A DNA stretch of 64,000 nucleotides from Thermoplasmatota archaeon (GTDB lineage Archaea; Thermoplasmatota; Thermoplasmata; UBA10834), in contig JAHIRF010000006.1 of assembly GCA_018818785.1 (NCBI GenBank), positions 223,636-287,635 on the forward strand, given 5' to 3'. The notes under the pieces were generated by a model. It was not told the DNA's origin. It did not search any database and saw only the letters and a list, made by a program, of their open reading frames with translations. The position numbers and the translations under genes are program-made. Below, piece after piece: positions 51,316 through 63,891 of the stretch. Position 1 is the first letter of the stretch; the number at the start of each line of letters is the position of its first letter.

Positions 51316-51377
51316 CTTGGGCTCGGTGCCTGTGACACAAGCAGAGATGTAAGAACCGCTTGGACCAGGTGATTCCT

Positions 51378-53198
51378 ATGAAGGAGCAAGAGAACGGCAA
51401 CGGCCCCATTAAGGTCAGTGATCGACCGGAAGAGCGGGGGCGAGCGACTCCCGGGAATCGGGATGGGAAGACTCCCATCGCAGCCTATGGGCTTTTTGCG
51501 CTCAAGCGAGTTTTGGGCATGGATGTCGGCTACTTCGAGAAGGAGCTAACATACCGTGCAGGCCTCGAATCGGCGGCACAATGCCTCAGCGACCTTCTCA
51601 CACCACGGGAAGTGGACGACCCCCAAGAACTCCTGGCATCAATAGTTGATGTGTGCGCCAGGGGGGGTTTCGGCCAGATAGCCGTTCACCGAATAGACCT
51701 AATCCACCAGCTGATCGAATTCACTTGTCATGATTCTGCGGAGACCATAGGGTATCTGCAAAGTGGAGAGATCCAGAGGAGCCCCTCATGTTCATACACA
51801 TCGGGATTCCTCGCGGGAATTGGCAAGTTGGTCTTTCCTGTAGAAGGCAAGGAGGAAGGAGACGACGAGATCATTGGAATGGAACTCGAATGCATCTCCA
51901 AAGGAGATAGTATCTGCAGATTCATCGTAGCACCGAAATCGGCCCTGGCACAAATGGGGTTGAGGGTCCAACCAGTTAGGGAATCCATATCTGAGCACAC
52001 GCTAAGACTGAATGAAGAAATCCTGGCGCGGAACCTCGACCTGCAGAATCTCAACCTGGACCTGGAGAGGCAGGTCAGGAAGAGGACCGAGGATTTGACA
52101 CGGTCCGATGAGAAGTACCGGTCCCTGATCGACCTCTCGCCGGACCCGATTGTGATCTGCACACTCGGCGGTATGATGAGAACAGTCAATGAAGCTGCAT
52201 ATGAGATGCTCGGATGCAGATCAGACGATGAACTCGTAAACGCAGGGATCGAGACCTACCTTCTGGACGGAAAGGATGCCTGGGACAGATGCGTCTGGCA
52301 GATCGATAAGGAAGGAATCGCCAAGGGTCAGACCATTGTCTTCATTGGCAGAGACGGCCAGAAGATCGTTGGAGACATATCCGCCCGATTCACCACAATC
52401 CACTCGGAGAAATGCGTGCACCTAGTCATAAGAGATGTGTCTGAGAAGAGTCTTTTGCGCGTAAAGATGGAGCAGGCGATGAATGACTCAGCGTTCTTCA
52501 ACGACCTGTTGTCGCATGACATCATCAACTACATGACCGCTTCAATGCACTTCCTCGATACTATGAGGAGGTCAGCAGATCTTTCGGATAAGGATAGAAA
52601 GGCGGTCGGCGTGGTCGCCAAGAATATCAAGGGAGCTTTTGAACTGGCTGCTGTCGTCCGCGATCTATCCAAAGCGGATGCGCTCGACGGGGAAGAAAGC
52701 GAATCCAGGGATTTATCCCAAGCTATGTCCGAGGCGGTTGAGGAGACAAGAACGATATTCTTCGACAGGAAGGTCTCGATCTCCATGGAGGTGCCCAGGA
52801 ACGGATGCTATGCAAGAGCTAACCCGCTCCTAGGCAGACTCTTCGTGAACTTACTGACCAATGCAGTCAAATTCGATTCGAAGCCGGAGGTCAAGATCAA
52901 AGTCATTGCTCAGGTCGAGACTCATAATAACAAAGAGTTCTGGTGCATCAGAATAATGGATAATGGCAAAGGTATACCGGACCAAGATAAGGAGAAGATT
53001 TTCGAAAGATATTTCAGAGGGGACGACACCGTACCTGGAACTGGTCTGGGCCTTCATGTGGTGAGAAAGATCGCAAACGCCTGTGGGGGGATCATCTGGG
53101 CAGAAAATCATGTGCCTGGAGATCATAAAAAGGGCACTACCATGGTCGTCCTGCTCGAGAAGGTTCCGGAGAGAACAGAACATAGACTGGCGAAATAG
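51378..53198 (+). CDS. Sensor histidine kinase: V4R-like, PAS, HisKA and HATPase domains
   Basis: A 606-residue soluble signalling protein. The N-terminal third resembles the V4R (4-vinyl reductase) ligand domain (MELECISKGDSICRF near residue 170). A coiled coil (about 205-250) leads to a PAS domain (YRSLIDLSPDPIVI, about 255-360), then the phospho-accepting His in LLSHDIINY (about 380), then the ATP-binding N box (NLLTNAVKF), G1 (DNGKGIP) and G2 (GTGLGLHVV). No membrane segment is seen. ATG 51378 follows AGGTGATT. No response regulator is adjacent; V4R often binds small hydrophobic molecules. Confidence 0.88.
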   Translation: MKEQENGNGPIKVSDRPEERGRATPGNRDGKTPIAAYGLFALKRVLGMDVGYFEKELTYRAGLESAAQCLSDLLTPREVDDPQELLASIVDVCARGGFGQIAVHRIDLIHQLIEFTCHDSAETIGYLQSGEIQRSPSCSYTSGFLAGIGKLVFPVEGKEEGDDEIIGMELECISKGDSICRFIVAPKSALAQMGLRVQPVRESISEHTLRLNEEILARNLDLQNLNLDLERQVRKRTEDLTRSDEKYRSLIDLSPDPIVICTLGGMMRTVNEAAYEMLGCRSDDELVNAGIETYLLDGKDAWDRCVWQIDKEGIAKGQTIVFIGRDGQKIVGDISARFTTIHSEKCVHLVIRDVSEKSLLRVKMEQAMNDSAFFNDLLSHDIINYMTASMHFLDTMRRSADLSDKDRKAVGVVAKNIKGAFELAAVVRDLSKADALDGEESESRDLSQAMSEAVEETRTIFFDRKVSISMEVPRNGCYARANPLLGRLFVNLLTNAVKFDSKPEVKIKVIAQVETHNNKEFWCIRIMDNGKGIPDQDKEKIFERYFRGDDTVPGTGLGLHVVRKIANACGGIIWAENHVPGDHKKGTTMVVLLEKVPERTEHRLAK

Positions 53199-53219: not shown

Positions 53220-53250
53220 TGGGCCCGTCGCGATTTGAACACGAGTCTAT
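53220..53250 (-). other. tRNA 3'-end fragment at left island boundary
   Basis: On the minus strand the T arm TCGTG-TTCAAAT-CGCGA is followed by the acceptor strand CGGGCCC and discriminator A, without CCA. The matching 5' acceptor strand (GGGCCCG) and anticodon arm are absent upstream, where the integrase coding sequence begins within 15 bp. It looks like the displaced 3' part of a tRNA used as an attachment site; a complete copy would be expected outside the window. Confidence 0.55.
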
Positions 53251-53265
53251 AATGCCACTACTGGC

Positions 53266-54480
53266 TCAATCCTCAATCAGCAGGGATTGAGATTTCGAGG
53301 TAGACCACGCTTCCTCAAGGTCATTGATTGCATCCTGCTCCCGACGCCTAGCATAATACAGTTCGGTCGTTCTAGTCGTCTTATGACCCATGAGAACGCT
53401 GATGCTATCAATCCGCGCGTTCATGTTAATGGCGCATTGACCAAAAGATCGGCGCATCATCTGAAAGCCGAATCTGAGACCAAGTGACTGCTCATATTTC
53501 CCTTTGATCTGGAGAGCGTATGTGCTTGACCAGCGTGATATCGAGCCGTCGCTTCGGAAGCAAGGCACCAAGGGGTTGCTTCCGAGATTCTCGATACCCA
53601 TTCGGGCCAATTCCCGTTCTCGTATCATGAGGAAATGAGCAATTGCGTCCCGTCCTGGTGAGACCATCTTCACATTTCGCACCTTGCCCCAAGTTCCCTC
53701 GCCTTTTGGGTGCCTGACCACAAGAATCCATTCAGACTGATAGAAGTCAGACATATCTGCAAAGCGTACCTCCTTTGGCCTCAATCCAGAATAAGCTCCG
53801 AATAGCACCAATCCAAGAATTCCAAGCGCTCTTGTGTCTCCGTCATTGGCGAGTTCCGACAATCTGCTGACAACCCTTTGCACTTCATCAATAGATGGGC
53901 AGGGCAACGGACCGGAGCTGCCCGAACCAGTCCGTATCAACCGTTTTGCTCTCATCCTCGCAATAACAGCATTTCCCTCAGATTCGAGGAAGACTGACAA
54001 TGCACCCAATAGACAAGTCTGAGTGCTCGGAGCCATTCTGCCATTACGCAGTTCAGTTTTTCCAGACATATACTCGAGAAGAGCCCCAATCTCCCGTTCA
54101 CTAATCATCTCTGGATTTGTGGATATCTCATAGCCGTTCTTCTTGAGAAGTTGCAGGATATCATGAATCTGGTGCAGCTTCCGGGATAGGTTACCATGAG
54201 AGACGGACTCATAGAATGGTCTCATATCCTTGAGGAATACCTCGAGCCTACTCAAGAACGGATATCGACCCATCGATCTCCGTCCACGCTTAGGCCCTGA
54301 GCGACCTGATCTGCCTCGTTGTCCCGAGTGGGTTTTGCTCGGGATATCATGTTTTCCCTTCTGGCGACGAGTTGTCCCGTCCTCTCCGCCAAAGGGGGTA
54401 TTCTCCACCGAGGACGTAAACTTAACGGACGATTCGTAACCCCCTTCTTCGGAGGAGCCATTGGAGGACGCTGGCTTCAT
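53266..54480 (-). CDS. Tyrosine recombinase (integrase)
   Basis: A 404-residue site-specific recombinase. The N-terminal 70 residues are low-complexity and basic; a core-binding domain follows; the catalytic domain has Arg234 (YSGLRPKEVR), Lys259 (RHPKGEG), Arg343 in QMMRRSF (the usual His of HxxR is Gln340), His366 (LMGHKTT) and the nucleophile Tyr375 or Tyr376 (ELYYARR). The variation in HxxR is known in archaeal integrases. It begins 3 bp from the serine recombinase stop and is the last gene of the operon. It is not split by the tRNA fragment, unlike SSV-type integrases. Confidence 0.88.
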   Translation of the reverse strand: MKPASSNGSSEEGGYESSVKFTSSVENTPFGGEDGTTRRQKGKHDIPSKTHSGQRGRSGRSGPKRGRRSMGRYPFLSRLEVFLKDMRPFYESVSHGNLSRKLHQIHDILQLLKKNGYEISTNPEMISEREIGALLEYMSGKTELRNGRMAPSTQTCLLGALSVFLESEGNAVIARMRAKRLIRTGSGSSGPLPCPSIDEVQRVVSRLSELANDGDTRALGILGLVLFGAYSGLRPKEVRFADMSDFYQSEWILVVRHPKGEGTWGKVRNVKMVSPGRDAIAHFLMIRERELARMGIENLGSNPLVPCFRSDGSISRWSSTYALQIKGKYEQSLGLRFGFQMMRRSFGQCAINMNARIDSISVLMGHKTTRTTELYYARRREQDAINDLEEAWSTSKSQSLLIED

Positions 54481-54482
54481 GT

Positions 54483-55109
54483 CTAATTCTCAACCCGTTT
54501 AGTAACCCTGACCTTTCGAAGGCGTTTCTTGACCCCCTGATGGCTCATTCCTATCTTCTCGGCTATCTGCTTCAATGACAATCCTTCGGCTCGTAGACGC
54601 AGAATATCGCTATCAGAGATGTCAAATCGAGGCCTGCCGAGGGTCTTCCCTTCGGCTCTTGCCCTAGCAAGCCCGTCCATCGTCCTTTCCCGGATCAGCT
54701 CAAGCTCGAGCTCGGAAACCGCGCCTAATATCGTGTAAAGCAGCTTGCCCGCAGGACTCGAAGTATCGATCTCTTGGTCGCTGCAGATAAGGCCGACATT
54801 GGCTCGCTTGAGTTCATCTAGCAGGTTGTGCAGATTCCGGACAGAGCGACCAATCCGGTCAATTCGTACAATTAGAACCGCATCGAATCTATGTCCTCGC
54901 GCGAGTTTCATCATTCGATCAAGGCCGGGACGGCTTGCCTTCCCTCCACTCGCAATGTCGATAAACTCCTCGAAGATTTGCCATTCCCTATGGGCTGCGA
55001 ATCTCCGGAGCTTAAGTAATTGGTTCTCGGGAGTCTGTTCCTTGTCATGACGGGAGACTCTGGCATATAGGGCCACTGTCATCTGCTCTTTGTTCGATTT
55101 CTCATTCAT
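54483..55109 (-). CDS. Serine recombinase (resolvase/invertase family)
   Basis: A 208-residue small serine recombinase. The catalytic Ser is Ser19 in YARVSRHDK; further family blocks are LIVRIDRIGRSVRNLHNLL and the LIRERTMDGLARARAEGKTLGRP linker. The C-terminal Hin-like helix-turn-helix (SLKQIAEKIGMSHQGVKKRL) binds DNA. ATG 55109 follows GGTGAATCC, 4 bp after the winged-helix gene stop. Such enzymes invert or resolve DNA; the target sites here are not identified. Confidence 0.88.
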   Translation of the reverse strand: MNEKSNKEQMTVALYARVSRHDKEQTPENQLLKLRRFAAHREWQIFEEFIDIASGGKASRPGLDRMMKLARGHRFDAVLIVRIDRIGRSVRNLHNLLDELKRANVGLICSDQEIDTSSPAGKLLYTILGAVSELELELIRERTMDGLARARAEGKTLGRPRFDISDSDILRLRAEGLSLKQIAEKIGMSHQGVKKRLRKVRVTKRVEN

Positions 55110-55113
55110 GGAT

Positions 55114-56043
55114 TCACCTGTAGGAGATATCTGGCGTTGAGTCTGGACTACTGGAGATTGGATGGTAGGCGTGATTTCGATTGATGGACTGGAGAATCTC
55201 AACGGCCTGAATCATCGCCTTTGTCAGCGCACCCAGCTCTGATTCGATAACCTTCATGGACTTTGAGAGCTTGACCTGCGCATTGCGCGTCTCAATTAGT
55301 GTCTTATTGAACTCGGTTGAATCAACGAGCATCTTGATTACGCGAGTCTTATCATCGTCATTTTCAGGCCCTTGAATGTCAATTTCAACGGGATAATGCG
55401 ACCCCGCGAGGACGACATCAGAACCGCCTACCCTTATTCGTCTATTCACGAGTTCGACGGGCAGGGATAGATGTTCATGGCCTTCGCGATTGGCGACCAT
55501 GTTTTTGAGATCATCAAGGAGTTCCTTGGAGAAGAAGCTGCGAATTGCCTCCTCCCATCCATTACGGAGCCATATTTGACCCTTACCTGAGGCCGCGCTG
55601 ATGCTCAAGCTCATGCTTGGGACCTTTATGACAATCATCGCGCGGTTCTGCTTTCCATTTCGAAATTCGCCAACCTCCCGAGCGATTTCAAGATCCGTTT
55701 CCGAAAGTGCGACTTTATAGGTTACTCGATGGCGGTTCTGAGTCAGGAATGGAGCCCTGCCAAGCGTGGGGGGCACCTTCTGCCAGTGTCTACTAGACTG
55801 GTTTTGAATTATGGATAGAGCACTGCCTGAATCCTTAACTCGAAATGTCAATTCATCACGAGCATCTCCTGATCGCTGGATTAGACCCTTCGTTTCGAAG
55901 CGTGCAAGAGCCTTGTAGACTGTGTTTCTCCTGGGCTTCTTCGATTCAAGCGACAGATTCCTAATGAGGTGGTCTATTGTGAACCATTTATCTGGGCTAT
56001 TGTTGAGAATGATGAGAACTCGTCTGGTGACACTCAGGCCCAT
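55114..56043 (-). CDS. Winged-helix DNA-binding protein, first gene of recombinase operon
   Basis: A 309-residue protein. The N-terminal 60-70 residues form a winged helix (WFTIDHLIRNLSL, NTVYKALARFETKGLIQR). The middle is a basic mixed region and residues 240-290 are predicted helical, perhaps a coiled coil. I do not recognise the rest. It overlaps neither neighbour but is only 4 bp from the serine recombinase, so it may regulate or direct the recombinases. Confidence 0.7.
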   Translation of the reverse strand: MGLSVTRRVLIILNNSPDKWFTIDHLIRNLSLESKKPRRNTVYKALARFETKGLIQRSGDARDELTFRVKDSGSALSIIQNQSSRHWQKVPPTLGRAPFLTQNRHRVTYKVALSETDLEIAREVGEFRNGKQNRAMIVIKVPSMSLSISAASGKGQIWLRNGWEEAIRSFFSKELLDDLKNMVANREGHEHLSLPVELVNRRIRVGGSDVVLAGSHYPVEIDIQGPENDDDKTRVIKMLVDSTEFNKTLIETRNAQVKLSKSMKVIESELGALTKAMIQAVEILQSINRNHAYHPISSSPDSTPDISYR

Positions 56044-56194
56044 TAGGCACCCTCCCTTAGGGCGGACACGATGACCGTCATTGACATTCCCTGCACTGGC
56101 TCAGTGCATTCGCAAAAGGTTGGAGGGTAGCCTAATGTCCATTCATCATCCTGTAATGCTGCAGGCGATACGGACGAGGCTCTCCCCTCAAGAT

Positions 56195-56707
56195 TCACCT
56201 CTTTTCCTCCGTTTGCGAATCGAAAATAGCAATCTCAGATTCATCATGTGATTGAGCAGATTGTGATGGTTCGGGAGGTCTATCTCCAAACGGACCTTTA
56301 TTGCCGTTTCTCGACGCCGATTCATTTCCGCACTCTCTGAGCCCGTCGACCGGCGTTCTACCGCTAGTTGCTCCAGGAACATAGCCAAGGTCCCGGAGCT
56401 GCCGAATTATCGCTCTCCGAACAAAGGAACTCTTATTCGGGAACTGGCGCGGGAGGTCCTGCAAGACAGCTTCGATTAGCTGCGAGATTCGCATCGGCAT
56501 CTTAGCGCTCACTATGAACATCTTTCTTCTATGGCTCGCATTATTCCGAGTTTTCCGCTCAACATTGAGGCCTTTACGAGGCTCAAGCACCTCTCTTGAA
56601 ATCAAGTGCTCTACAAATCTCGAGAACGGAATCAACCCAGCGGCCATCTTACCCTTTATCAGGACTTCCTGATCTATCGAAATCAACACTTTCTTTCGTC
56701 TATACAT
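56195..56707 (-). CDS. Tandem ribbon-helix-helix-like protein
   Basis: A 170-residue protein with two stretches that look like ribbon-helix-helix modules: KVLISIDQEVLIKGKMAAGL followed by FSRFVEHLISREVLE (residues 6-42), and FIVSAKMPMRISQLIEAVL with SSFVRRAIIRQLRDLG (about 64-108). The last 50 residues are hydrophilic. Such proteins are element repressors or copy-control factors. It is divergent from the 56743 gene with 35 bp between starts, so overlapping promoters are likely. Confidence 0.65.
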   Translation of the reverse strand: MYRRKKVLISIDQEVLIKGKMAAGLIPFSRFVEHLISREVLEPRKGLNVERKTRNNASHRRKMFIVSAKMPMRISQLIEAVLQDLPRQFPNKSSFVRRAIIRQLRDLGYVPGATSGRTPVDGLRECGNESASRNGNKGPFGDRPPEPSQSAQSHDESEIAIFDSQTEEKR

Positions 56708-56742: not shown

Positions 56743-58014
56743 ATGCCAACAGTGTTAAAAGTACAAGATTCTGCATCTGGCCATTTCGCATGTTCATTTG
56801 AAAGTAGGGTAACAGAATGGCCTGAGAATGGCGAACGAGGATATCTTAGGACCCCTCCAAAAGGTCAACTCGTCAAACAGGTTTTTGAAGATTGGAGCAC
56901 AGGAAAGCTGACCTCTGGACTCGAAAATGAACTCTCAAGGCGACGATTGAATCTCTGGAATATTTGTAGAATCGTTTGTTGTGATCACTGTCAATTCTTT
57001 GAATCGGGCTCAGATGCCAAACATGAAATGGACCCTCTATCTTCTAAAATGGCATTCAACAGATTCTATGTGAGCGATGTTGAGGATATGTCATTCAGAC
57101 GAGCCCTCGTGATCCTATATATCTTCGGCAGCAATGGACGGACAGGAAATGGCCGCCCAATGGGCTATCTTGATGAAGACATTGCGAAGTTCGCAGGCGT
57201 GAGTACAAGAAAGTCGAAAGAACGGATTATCAAGCTATTCACCGATTATGGCTATCTTAAGAAACACAACCTCAAGGGGAGAATACGGTATAGCTACAAT
57301 CCTGTTGGGCGTAGCACGATGATGCGTGCCCACAAATTGACCATCAGGGATGATGCGAGTAAGATCATGAGACATGCGCTCAAGGATGTGGAGCGGAAGA
57401 AGATCGAGGCTATCATGGGGACCTATGTCACTGGCGATGTTCCCCCTCCACCATTCATGAACACCTTGATCTTCTCACTCCGGATGTTCAGCCTACTATG
57501 GAATTATCAGCTGGAAGCATCAATAGACTACGAATCTAAGGAGAAGAACGGGAAGCGGAATAATGTCGTGCTCGCGCCAGGCAGCAAGGAAGCCGCAGAG
57601 TACACAAAAAATCTGGTGTATTGCCATTTGGATGCCTTCATGAACTCGTCGTCTCCTATCAAAAAGAGTGACAAGAGACAATGTCTTGAATATCGCGAGA
57701 AATTTAAACCTGGGATGAAACGGAATAACCATAGCGTCAGGAGCCCAGTATTGGTCTGGGACCTGCAGAAGGCATTCGCTCTTTATGATGACCTTAATGA
57801 TCCAGGATCAAGAATCTTATGCGATGAACCTGGATGCTCCGGGAGGTCATGGAGCACGATGAATGATGAGAATGGCGCTGCAATGAAAAGAAAGACAGAC
57901 CAACATTTTGGCAGACGAAAGAAAAGACCTGCAAAACCTGGCAGTCAACTGACATATTGGGAGAATTTCGTAACCGGGATGGTCGAATCGATTGAACAGA
58001 TGTATCGAGATTGA
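56743..58014 (+). CDS. Large winged-helix protein with cysteine motif, unknown function
   Basis: A 423-residue protein whose gene is poorer in GC than the core genes. Cysteines cluster at 75, 79, 80 and 83 (CRIVCCDHC), with another group near the end (LCDEPGCSGR). A winged helix is likely at about 140-190 (YLDEDIAKFAGVSTRKSKERI, LFTDYGYLKKHNLKGRIRYSYN). Without recognisable catalytic motifs it might be a replication or transcription factor of the element. ATG 56743 lies about 27 nt after a TATA box, so a leaderless transcript is expected; the frame is open further upstream from 56596 but crosses the promoter. Confidence 0.65.
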   Translation: MPTVLKVQDSASGHFACSFESRVTEWPENGERGYLRTPPKGQLVKQVFEDWSTGKLTSGLENELSRRRLNLWNICRIVCCDHCQFFESGSDAKHEMDPLSSKMAFNRFYVSDVEDMSFRRALVILYIFGSNGRTGNGRPMGYLDEDIAKFAGVSTRKSKERIIKLFTDYGYLKKHNLKGRIRYSYNPVGRSTMMRAHKLTIRDDASKIMRHALKDVERKKIEAIMGTYVTGDVPPPPFMNTLIFSLRMFSLLWNYQLEASIDYESKEKNGKRNNVVLAPGSKEAAEYTKNLVYCHLDAFMNSSSPIKKSDKRQCLEYREKFKPGMKRNNHSVRSPVLVWDLQKAFALYDDLNDPGSRILCDEPGCSGRSWSTMNDENGAAMKRKTDQHFGRRKKRPAKPGSQLTYWENFVTGMVESIEQMYRD

Positions 58015-58366: not shown

Positions 58367-58410
58367 TGAGAGAAGCCCTTAAGCCATTGAAGACGATTCA
58401 GGGAGCGCTC
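58367..58410 (+). promoter_or_regulatory. Repeated promoter module, copy 1
   Basis: GAGAGAAGCCCTTAAGCC at 58369-58386, followed by ATTGAAGACGATTCAGGGAG, is the first of three copies of a module in the island. It precedes a 19-residue frame and the 58481 gene. CTTAAG may act as part of a TATA/BRE. Confidence 0.55.
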
Positions 58411-58480: not shown

Positions 58481-58807
58481 GTGACAGGCATTCCGGATTC
58501 GGGAAGTCGCGATAGACCAGATAGGTACCAACAATACACTCTTTTCGATGTCGTCGATAGACTTCATGACATAGAAAACAGAATAGAGGCAATAGAGTCT
58601 GGCATTGAGGAACAAAAGGAGCGCGAGTACCACAACTATGTGCGAAATACAGGTATCGCTTTCGTCACTCTTTCTCTTGCAGGATACAGTTTATCGCTCG
58701 CATTGCCAGATTCCTCGTATGGCCTAATCAGTACTGTGGTCGGAATTGCAGGAATAATACTCGTGTATGTATCGCTGTTTATATCAAGGAAGAGGAAAGG
58801 AACTTAG
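58481..58807 (+). CDS. Small membrane protein with N-terminal coiled coil
   Basis: A 108-residue protein from GTG 58481. Residues 20-50 form a coiled coil (FDVVDRLHDIENRIEAIE). Two membrane segments lie at about 55-73 and 82-102, before a basic end RKRKGT. No family is recognised. It is the first of three membrane/surface genes following identical promoter modules. Confidence 0.6.
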   Translation: MTGIPDSGSRDRPDRYQQYTLFDVVDRLHDIENRIEAIESGIEEQKEREYHNYVRNTGIAFVTLSLAGYSLSLALPDSSYGLISTVVGIAGIILVYVSLFISRKRKGT

Positions 58808-58843
58808 CTCTGACCAATGCTCCGCTGATTGAATCAATCCGTG

Positions 58844-58892
58844 GGAAAAGACCATGGGGACGGAGAGAAGCTCTTAAGCCATCGATAGGCAT
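58844..58892 (+). promoter_or_regulatory. Repeated promoter module, copy 2
   Basis: AAAAGACCATGGGG then GGAGAGAAGCTCTTAAGCCA (58862-58881) and TCGATAGGCATTCCC. With copy 3 the similarity begins earlier, at the AAAAGRCCAT. It precedes the 58923 gene by about 40 nt. Confidence 0.55.
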
Positions 58893-58922
58893 TCCCATTT
58901 CGGGAATCCTGGGTGGTTACTC

Positions 58923-59900
58923 TTGAGTGAAGATAGTCTTACCGCAATTGCGATTATCGTTTCGGCTGTCTTGGCGATCATTGGCTATGTTTTCAATTCG
59001 AAGGCTGCCCGGGATCTAGAAAGGTCCAAAGTCTACAGACAGACGAAACTAGATGCGTATAGAGAGATGAACGCAGCAATCACGGATATTACCTACGTGT
59101 ATGAATCATGTCGACAATTGCTGACGCAAATGAAGCTCACCAAGCCTGATGATTCCTTTGCCCCAATCATCATGGAGTATGTCTCGCACCTAAGAGACTC
59201 CGAAAGGAGTTTGGGGACGGACATTGCAGATAGAATCATTCAAACGCACGAAGAGTTTGTCGATGAGCAGATGCAGGACTCAGAGAACAAGGAAGACCGA
59301 GCGTCGGAACATATCTTCGTGAGATATGCCGCTGTCTCTGCGAACATACTAAGCCGGAGAGTGATTAGTCAGGGAATAAAACGCATGGAAATGGCTAGAG
59401 CTAATGCAGCTCTCGTTTCAGAAGAGCCAGGCACCGTGCGAACAGACCTCCAGAATCTCATTAGTCATCTAACAGTGCATTGGGAACTCACTTCCGATGC
59501 AATAGCCAATGAACTAAAGCGCCACCAGGATGGCCTGAATGCATCTGAGATTGTATCGAACAGTAGGGATGAGGAATTGGCTTCGAAGATTGCAGAAGCT
59601 ACGAAGACTATGAAAGATGATTTGAACAAGGCAATGGTCTCCTCTTGGTTTTCATTTCCGTTGAAGAGACCTCAGCACCGGGAACAGTCCGAGCACGGAG
59701 TCTCGTCCAGCGTCCTTGCACTTAGCCAAATCTCAATTGCCTTGCTCATCGCTGGATACACTGTAATCTTCTCGGTCCTGATTGCCGAGGGTTTTGCTCT
59801 TAGTTCCGTCTATTGGGGCGGAGTTATGTTGATACTCGTCGGTGGATATGTCGCCGTCAAATCAATACAGCGTCATGAATCATCTGAGAAAAGGCCATAG
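58923..59900 (+). CDS. Membrane protein with long cytoplasmic helical region
   Basis: A 325-residue protein from TTG 58923, preceded by GGGTGGTTA. A single N-terminal membrane segment (about 5-22) is followed by about 235 mostly helical residues and two C-terminal membrane segments (about 265-285 and 290-310), ending in a basic tail. The helical region resembles coiled-coil spacer proteins with no catalytic motif. Both ends anchored in the membrane suggests a bridging or surface-sensing role; the function is unknown. Confidence 0.6.
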   Translation: MSEDSLTAIAIIVSAVLAIIGYVFNSKAARDLERSKVYRQTKLDAYREMNAAITDITYVYESCRQLLTQMKLTKPDDSFAPIIMEYVSHLRDSERSLGTDIADRIIQTHEEFVDEQMQDSENKEDRASEHIFVRYAAVSANILSRRVISQGIKRMEMARANAALVSEEPGTVRTDLQNLISHLTVHWELTSDAIANELKRHQDGLNASEIVSNSRDEELASKIAEATKTMKDDLNKAMVSSWFSFPLKRPQHREQSEHGVSSSVLALSQISIALLIAGYTVIFSVLIAEGFALSSVYWGGVMLILVGGYVAVKSIQRHESSEKRP

Positions 59901-59942
59901 AGGTGGGAGAGAAGCCCTTAAGCCTTCGAGAGCGATTCTGGA
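59886..59942 (+). promoter_or_regulatory. Repeated promoter module, copy 3
   Basis: AAAAGGCCATAGAGG then GGGAGAGAAGCCCTTAAGCC (59905-59924) and TTCGAGAGCGATTCTGGAG. It overlaps the end of the 58923 gene and drives the surface-protein gene at 59951. Confidence 0.55.
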
Positions 59943-59950
59943 GTGAGGAA

Positions 59951-61015
59951 ATGGCGATGCTCGCAAAGACGGGGGCTGCGTATTCGATAATAGGCTTGCT
60001 CGTGATCGGAATGTTTCTGTGCGTTTTACAGCCCGCGGAGGCAACATCAGGGAGTATAACGGTCAATCCAGGTGAGACAAAATACGTTAGTTTCGGGACC
60101 TGCGTCGACAATGACGTTTTACTGTGGTCTCTGGAAATATCAACCTGGAGCACAATCTTCACTTACTGGTTGCAGAAACCAGATGGAGGGCACCTGACTC
60201 TCGAATCCTTGACGTGGGGGAAGGTTGTTAATTATCCGGGAGAATGGAAGCTTGGATTCAGCATAGACTCATCTGGATGGTGGAGCGCGACCTTATACTA
60301 CACGACATACAGGGTCACGCCAAGTATAGTCATCTCGACCCCGCACGACTCATCATACATCAATCAGGCACAGATAGATGTCTCGGGAACCGTTGATGGA
60401 TACGCGGATGCTGTGGCGGTTAGTCTTGACGATATTCACTACGACACTGCGGACATCTACCTCGGAAGCTGGAGCCGACAGGTGACTTTGACAGCGGATG
60501 GCGACCATACAATTTACGCAGAGGCCACTTTGAACTGGGGAAGCTACGCCGTCAAGTACTACGATTCTGTGACAGTGACCCTCGATAGAGTCCTCCCCGA
60601 GGTCAACATAGTGGTACCAAGCGATAGCGGGCTTGTCAGGGATAATTATGTGGACATCAGCTGGCAATGTTCGGATGAATGCGGTATAGCCAAGACCGAG
60701 ATGAAGATTGACAGTTGGGGATGGAGCACTGTAACAGGAAGCAGCTACAACGATTTCAGGCTGTCAACAGGTGAACATACTATTCAGATTCGCGTCACCG
60801 ACATGGCCGGCAACCAGGCAACCGATTCCACAACATTTACCGTTGATGCACGAGCGTTGAGCTTCGACGGCCCCTACTACGGTTTACCATTGGTGGGCAT
60901 AGTTCTGGGCATAGTGATTGTTGCCATTACTCTGGTTTTGCTATTACGACGAAGGCGTGGAGGTGCCGCTATCGCAACCGCGCCGGAGGAGACCTCGCCG
61001 GAATCGGCCCAATGA
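59951..61015 (+). CDS. Surface protein with signal peptide, Ig-like repeats and C-terminal anchor
   Basis: A 354-residue exported protein. ATG 59951, after GGAGTGAGG, opens a signal peptide (MAMLAKTGAAYSIIGLL, cleavage near AEATSG). The mature part contains two Ig-like (Big/bacterial surface) repeats around VSGTVDGYADAVAVSLDD and ISWQCSDECGIAKTEM, the latter with a cysteine pair, and an RVTDMAGNQATDSTTFTV end typical of such domains. A membrane helix at about 305-328 followed by RRRRGG anchors it. The frame is open from 59903 but that start precedes the promoter module. Adhesion is a reasonable guess. Confidence 0.7.
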   Translation: MAMLAKTGAAYSIIGLLVIGMFLCVLQPAEATSGSITVNPGETKYVSFGTCVDNDVLLWSLEISTWSTIFTYWLQKPDGGHLTLESLTWGKVVNYPGEWKLGFSIDSSGWWSATLYYTTYRVTPSIVISTPHDSSYINQAQIDVSGTVDGYADAVAVSLDDIHYDTADIYLGSWSRQVTLTADGDHTIYAEATLNWGSYAVKYYDSVTVTLDRVLPEVNIVVPSDSGLVRDNYVDISWQCSDECGIAKTEMKIDSWGWSTVTGSSYNDFRLSTGEHTIQIRVTDMAGNQATDSTTFTVDARALSFDGPYYGLPLVGIVLGIVIVAITLVLLLRRRRGGAAIATAPEETSPESAQ

Positions 61016-61772: not shown

Positions 61773-62027
61773 TGCCACCCCCTGTACTGAGAGGGAACGC
61801 GGAATATTAACCTTCCCTCCTGGGAGGTGATAAAGAACTGAAAGAGGTTTGGCGAGGGGCAAATGACCCCTCGTTTCTGTTGCCTTCCAAAGACGCAATA
61901 AAACGGGTATGATGTACCTAAATCGGCCGAGCCAGTCAGTTTCGTGGTCCCTAATGTCAATGACCCAATTGGCCATTAGAAAAGACAATAGAGGTGTAAC
62001 GGTCTTCGGAGCTGAGGTGGTTGGAGG

Positions 62028-62906: not shown

Positions 62907-63761
62907 GTGCAGGATGAATCGCCCGGCAAGTCTTTAGTCCTGAAATTCTTACATATGAATACAATGCAGCAATCCATGCAGCAGCTGCTGACAGACATGA
63001 TGATGTCATTGCGCAATCGCTATGACATTAATGATGAGAAGATGGTCATGATAAAGGAGTTCATAAGAGTGAGCAAGAACGATCTTGACGCATCGAGAAT
63101 CCTGTATGATCACGAATTATTTGCATTGGCTGTTTTTCACTTACAGCAGGCTGTGGAGAAAGCGATAAAAGCTCAATGTTTGCTATCAGGCCTGATTTCG
63201 GAAAAAGAAATCAGAACAATACAGCATGAATCGCTCAGGGGCCAACAAATCATTGCGAATAGGTTTTCAGAACTCGTGAAGGTACACGCACAAGAGAACC
63301 CGAATCTGGATGTTGTTCCCAGACTAGATGAGATTATGGGTGAGAAACGGCTTGAGATGGCAAGAATTGATGGAAATGGAATCGACACCATTCTATCTGC
63401 CTATGATAGGCAAATAGAGTCCCTAGACATTGCCAAACTACTGACGACTGAGAAGCTAGAGCCAATACTTTCTGAAATCAGACGAAACAGCCCAGACCTC
63501 GAGATATCCGACAGTGATGCTCAAGCGATATTAGATCAGTTTAAGGAATTGGGTCCAAGTCTAATCTGCACTGCAGAGAACTTTACATTCCTTTTTGTTG
63601 CCTCAGCGATTACATTTCCACATGCAGTCTGTACACGATATCCTGGAGGCGAAATGAGCCCCAAGGACTACAATCCATCACTGGGAATAGTCAACCGCCA
63701 ACCAGAGTTGACCAAGCGATTCGATAAGGTAATTGAGTACTTGGAACTCCAAGTTAGATGA
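62907..63761 (+). CDS. HEPN-domain protein
   Basis: A 284-residue protein. The core KNDLDASRILYDHELFALAV, HLQQAVEKAIKAQCLL and the following IQHES (residues about 52-110) match HEPN domains, often found in toxins and defence RNases. The standard RX4-6H pair is not clearly visible in the second half. GTG 62907 is the frame start; ATG 62955 (Met17) is an alternative. No adjacent MNT nucleotidyltransferase is seen, so it may act alone or with the 62028 protein. Confidence 0.65.
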   Translation: MQDESPGKSLVLKFLHMNTMQQSMQQLLTDMMMSLRNRYDINDEKMVMIKEFIRVSKNDLDASRILYDHELFALAVFHLQQAVEKAIKAQCLLSGLISEKEIRTIQHESLRGQQIIANRFSELVKVHAQENPNLDVVPRLDEIMGEKRLEMARIDGNGIDTILSAYDRQIESLDIAKLLTTEKLEPILSEIRRNSPDLEISDSDAQAILDQFKELGPSLICTAENFTFLFVASAITFPHAVCTRYPGGEMSPKDYNPSLGIVNRQPELTKRFDKVIEYLELQVR

Positions 63762-63837: not shown

Positions 63838-63872
63838 CTGGCTCGCATCGGGTTCAAATCCCGGCGGCCGCA
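63838..63872 (+). other. tRNA 3'-end fragment at right island boundary
   Basis: CTGGC (3' half of an anticodon stem), TCGCA, then T arm TCGGG-TTCAAAT-CCCGG and the acceptor strand CGGCCGC with discriminator A. The 5' acceptor (GCGGCCG) and anticodon are missing. It differs from the left fragment and points the opposite way. Confidence 0.6.
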
Positions 63873-63891
63873 CGTCCATTCTTCTGAGAAA

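Follow-up and report, generated by a model that had tools for sequence, protein, structure and literature searches.

Two recombinases of unrelated type, encoded side by side in one tight operon, appear from gene order and phylogeny to form a real functional unit on a plasmid-like element that is integrated at a proline tRNA gene in a Thermoplasmata archaeon; the second enzyme probably resolves copies of the element. The window, by which we denote the whole 64,000-nucleotide stretch of DNA analysed, contains the integrase end of this element and stems from a Thermoplasmata MAG (Table 1). Its tyrosine recombinase (Tyr) is almost certainly the tRNA-Pro(GGG) integrase, which would insert the element at, and excise it from, the 3′ end of that tRNA gene. 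The small serine recombinase (Ser) is probably translated from the same message and is most likely a resolvase, which would act on directly repeated element sites and thereby convert dimers, tandem insertions and cointegrates into single copies, such that the integrase would always meet a monomer. The third product, a winged-helix protein (wHTH), is most likely a local regulator of the operon, possibly acting via a palindrome upstream of its own gene. To the complete scheme, with Tyr integrating and excising, Ser resolving copies and wHTH regulating, we assign about an even chance of being correct.

Table 1. Coordinates of the recombinase operon, its att end and the neighbouring features in the window.
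Feature	Position	Strand	Properties and basis
att core, displaced fragment of the tRNA-Pro(GGG) 3′ end at the Tyr end of the element	53223-53250	-	28-bp exact copy
Tyrosine recombinase (Tyr; tRNA-Pro integrase)	53266-54480	-	404 aa; ORF and family searches
Small serine recombinase (Ser)	54483-55109	-	208 aa; N-terminal catalytic domain, C-terminal HTH
Winged-helix protein (wHTH)	55114-56043	-	309 aa; wHTH at the N-terminus, central domain of unknown fold, long C-terminal helix
Candidate operator, perfect palindrome TGCACTG-GCT-CAGTGCA	56092-56108	.	Upstream of the wHTH gene; sequence
170-aa protein	56195-56707	-	Ribbon-helix-helix-like by eye; upstream of the operon, same strand
Divergent 423-aa protein	56743-58014	+	Winged-helix-like stretch by eye; family searches
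Putative promoter module 1 (AGAAGCCCTTAAGCCATTGA)	58371-58390	+	Pattern search
Putative promoter module 2	58866-58885	+	Pattern search
Putative promoter module 3	59910-59929	+	Pattern search
Cargo: three membrane/surface proteins	58481-61015	+	108, 325 and 370 aa; each behind a module

The genes for wHTH, Ser and Tyr are arranged head-to-tail on the minus strand and are separated by 4 bp (wHTH/Ser) and 2 bp (Ser/Tyr), which bears out the reading frames, strand and 2–4-bp spacing of the original prediction. Ser starts at the ATG at 55109 and stops at 54483; an upstream TTG at 55202, whose longer frame would run into the wHTH gene, is the less likely start, given that homologues begin near the ATG. 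Ser matches the Pfam family Resolvase (E 4e-43) and a PHROG annotated as ‘DNA invertase’ (E 9e-50), and displays the full features of a small serine recombinase: the Ser/Arg/Asp catalytic set (R17, S19, D51, R60, D84, R85 and R88), invariant across aligned homologues, a C-terminal HTH (residues 166–205) and a size within ∼180–210 residues. An assignment as an IS607-type transposase was rejected because the HTH is C-terminal rather than N-terminal and the neighbouring genes do not encode TnpB; the match to IS607 was partial (residues 4–89) and far under the cut-off. For Tyr, the Pfam Phage_integrase match (E 6e-6) falls slightly short of the gathering score, and further matches were obtained to a PHROG integrase (E 4e-12) and, via the family profile, to archaeal Xer structures (E 3e-23). 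Its catalytic residues are R234, K259, R343, H366 and Y376/Y377; a Gln replaces the usual histidine of HxxR, a position that is variable in intact relatives too. Residues 8–73 of wHTH match a FUR-type winged helix (E 3e-5). AlphaFold prediction of this protein without an alignment reached a mean pLDDT of 44, insufficient for a fold search, with values of ∼70 for the wHTH and ∼80 for the C-terminal helix and poor values for the middle part.

That Tyr carries out integration is shown by three findings: an att core, an intact tRNA gene and an empty site in related genomes. The core lies 15 bp beyond the Tyr stop codon and is identical to C7:85181-85208, which lies within the intact tRNA-Pro(GGG) gene on contig C7. 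In three related genomes (G150, G002 and G084) rps9, tRNA-Pro and the kinase gene are contiguous, and the tRNA-kinase distance is only ∼30–55 bp. In the present genome, rps9-tRNA-Pro lies on C7 and the histidine kinase gene that flanks the element (51360-53198) on C1, each next to element DNA; the island has therefore been inserted at tRNA-Pro between C7 and C1. The 404-residue Tyr reading frame is intact in the element; hence, the integrase gene is not split by integration. C1 ends at the end of the window and C7 1.8 kb past the tRNA; both contigs stop inside the element, the middle of which is unassembled. The C7 arm carries two further promoter modules in the same relative orientation as the three modules in the window. 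The end of C7 is a 142-bp exact repeat of the start of C4 (C7:86845-86986 and C4:1-142), including a tRNA-like sequence; this repeat likely caused the assembly break, and a search for overlapping contig ends that would close the gap between C7 and C1 found no overlap.

The tRNA-Pro site looks like an integration hotspot, because G069 and G016 carry a Tyr-like 3′ end directly after the same tRNA. On C7 (L005:10210-10400), two C-terminal Tyr remnants, along with a piece of a second tRNA, are located right after tRNA-Pro; these are traces of earlier integrations. A viral origin was rejected, as the Tyr profile gave only one relative among viral contigs. Relatives of Ser were found on 2570 plasmid records.

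To see whether the gene order recurs, as the original prediction had proposed to check, a survey was made of up to 400 genomes of the class and, in addition, of named genomes. Ser immediately precedes Tyr, in the same orientation, in 15 archaeal loci from 12 genomes, the window included; among the named hosts are Methanomassiliicoccales archaeon PtaU1.Bin124 (L108) and Thermoplasmata archaeon SG225.bin4 (L110 and L112). The arrangement is thus more than chance, and the proposed coupled unit is borne out. The premise that elements use one recombinase class fails in this group. In most archaeal loci the spacing between the two genes ranges from a 14-bp overlap to ∼20 bp. The order was also seen in three bacterial loci (L120, L154 and L173) as against about 130 bacterial or viral-contig loci without it, raw counts that are biased since loci were chosen by Ser similarity and six of them were used in the profile; the trees are independent of profile scores. 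Not all Ser copies are complete: contig ends, gaps or decay have truncated those at L085, L086, L088 and L134. Of ten downstream proteins checked against Pfam, three of them bacterial, nine match Phage_integrase; the identity of the L316 protein as a Tyr rests on the family profile. At about half of the loci the Tyr gene ends at a tRNA gene or fragment (L080, L082, L083, L087, L088, L134, L311, L313 and the window), the intron-bearing tRNA of L087 and the fragments of L080 and L082 being identified by eye. Searches of the openly licensed literature yielded nothing on point for archaeal Ser-Tyr operons.

In the Ser tree, a quick tree with several long branches, two archaeal clades are in tandem with Tyr in 8/8 and 6/6 cases, and L087 and the bacterial cases are placed elsewhere; the order seems to have had more than one origin. 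Within the linked clades, Ser identity extends down to about 45%. In the Tyr tree the Ser-linked integrases are scattered (12 changes versus a shuffled mean of 14.8), which marks Ser as an add-on to integrases that is not bound to a single lineage of them. Judged by these trees, Ser seems to depend on the company of an integrase, and integrases do not seem to need Ser. It is conceivable that both enzymes merely gather at the att end of mobile elements and are independent, with no joint function. The multiple origins of the order fit this reading, as does the fact that Ser without an adjacent Tyr is common elsewhere; the consistent linkage over such deep divergence and the selection implied by overlapping or near-touching frames speak against it, and we consider it improbable.

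Alternatively, Ser might aid Tyr in integration or excision: at the att site it could set directionality or play an architectural part, or it could be a second integrase with access to other targets. This would suit the archaeal-clade Ser, which is always paired with an integrase, has swapped partners and shows no other conserved partner, and it would suit frames that usually touch or overlap. However, many Tyr relatives reside at tRNA genes without Ser, others in this genome included, and a mere binding factor would have no need of the full catalytic set that Ser retains. We judge such an auxiliary role unlikely. An unlikely further reading is a two-recombinase module in which Ser would be the obligate partner of interchangeable Tyr integrases, for example by governing directionality or copy number at att; if true, the two recombinase superfamilies would share the work within a single reaction pathway.

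Multimer resolution, in our estimation, would be the most economical role for a small serine recombinase that is coupled, retains its catalytic residues and resides on a plasmid-like element. Ser has its closest full-length relatives of solved structure in a DNA invertase and in the Tn3 and γδ resolvases; resolvase and invertase are not separable from the Ser sequence alone. At two loci (L313 and L316), a symmetric array of the type CGATAAC-N18-GTTATCG is located directly upstream of Ser, a position typical of Tn3-type res sites. Six half-sites, GATAAC or GTTATC, with identical N18 spacing occur within ∼140 bp before Ser (L313:924-1100 and L316:8066-8210), between Ser and a D5-type primase gene recognised by eye; the array could be a res-like site or the replication origin of the adjacent primase. 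The recognition helices speak against a simple Ser specificity for the array, because the window and L108 have a similar helix yet lack the array and L316 has the array with a different helix. No such array was found in the window, and no palindrome near Ser is shared across the loci. A shared Ser-binding palindrome was rejected as a candidate: apart from the L313/L316 array, exact inverted half-sites were not clearly above shuffles.

Could Ser instead be a DNA invertase and switch some segment of the element, such as the promoter modules or the surface-protein cargo? Its best PHROG and PDB matches are both invertases, and the cargo includes membrane and Ig-domain proteins. The 20-bp module core near AGAAGCCCTTAAGCCATCGA, counted with up to two mismatches to a degenerate pattern, occurs in 12 copies in the genome, all within integrase-bearing islands (window 58371, 58866 and 59910; C5:167054-170614; C1:27285-45772; C7:85552 and 86811). 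Seven of these copies belong to two other islands, both of them Ser-less, as the genome has no Ser gene apart from that of the element. The five modules that the element itself carries, three in the window and two on the C7 arm, share a single orientation, and the inverted-repeat search suggested by the original prediction, run over the assembled part of the element, detected no convincing inverted pair around them. Inversion of the 58–60-kb modules by Ser was rejected on these grounds; an invertase role for Ser as a whole has, in our view, only a small probability. The division of labour that had been proposed is supported for integration by Tyr and unsupported for inversion or resolution of modules by the other enzyme.

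We read the modules as promoters of the element. A following gene of at least 80 codons could be assigned for eight of them, of which seven start at 10–37 nt and one at 90 nt downstream of the core; they look like plain promoters because of this mostly short distance to the assigned start codons. The products behind them are small membrane and zinc-ribbon proteins. Similar modules are found near the Ser-Tyr loci of G084 and G061, with copies in related genomes at L081, L082 and L084. A tRNA-3′-end-like sequence, GGCTCGCAYMGGGTTC..CCCGGCGGCCGCAC, recurs at window 63840-63875, at C7:86848-86885, at C4:108-142 and on C5 just before 170058; three of its copies closely precede promoter modules or a module-like sequence, resembling a cassette boundary.

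The three-gene order, which had been predicted to recur, was seen with a wHTH gene directly upstream of Ser in the window, L087 (G042), L108 (Methanomassiliicoccales PtaU1.Bin124) and L311 (G155), but the wHTH proteins are not one family. Only those of L108 and L311 are homologous to each other; the family found via L108 has 12 members, mostly encoded close to a Ser gene. A single family was rejected on hhalign probabilities of 1–3% between the window, L087 and L108-type proteins, as was homology between the window and L087 proteins, whose alignment (23% identity) is not significant. The place upstream of Ser would therefore seem to be a recurrent position rather than that of one conserved protein.

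The 170-residue protein upstream of the operon has no match in Pfam, and family searches with the divergent 423-residue protein, possibly a replication or regulatory protein, gave no match. A 333-residue ORF at 61053-62054 matches PHROG 7805 (E 7e-43), a family of unknown function; the DNA encoding its N-terminus (about 61880-61950) is a repeat that also occurs near the Ser-Tyr loci L081 and L082. The 284-residue protein at 62907-63761 contains a HEPN domain (E 6e-9) and is possibly a defence or toxin gene product.

Tyrosine and serine recombinases are unrelated enzymes that are usually studied apart, and archaeal serine recombinases have hardly been studied so far. A Ser clade that is always encoded with a tRNA-type integrase, yet swaps partners, suggests selection for joint use. 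The defined gene pair, att site and empty site offer a test of how both classes share the life cycle of one element.

In comparison with known systems, the element has in common with archaeal tRNA-targeting elements of the pNOB8 type (class II integrases; reviewed in PMC8371274) the intact Tyr gene beside the att core of a tRNA 3′ end and the intact tRNA at the opposite end, and differs from them by the Ser gene coupled directly upstream of the integrase; the review mentions archaeal serine recombinases only in transposons. With the Tn3/γδ and Sin-type plasmid resolvases, Ser shares the small architecture, the catalytic residues and the C-terminal HTH, but in the window it is without a demonstrable res site with accessory subsites and belongs to an integrase operon instead of lying beside transposase or partition genes. 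The Gin/Hin/Cin-type invertases have the same domain order and provide the closest PDB and PHROG matches; unlike for these enzymes, no inverted crossover sites or invertible segment were found around Ser in the assembled part of the element. Phage P1 encodes the tyrosine recombinase Cre and the invertase Cin as separate genes with unrelated tasks. Both recombinase classes are thus present on one element there as here, whereas in the archaeal element their genes are adjacent and co-conserved.
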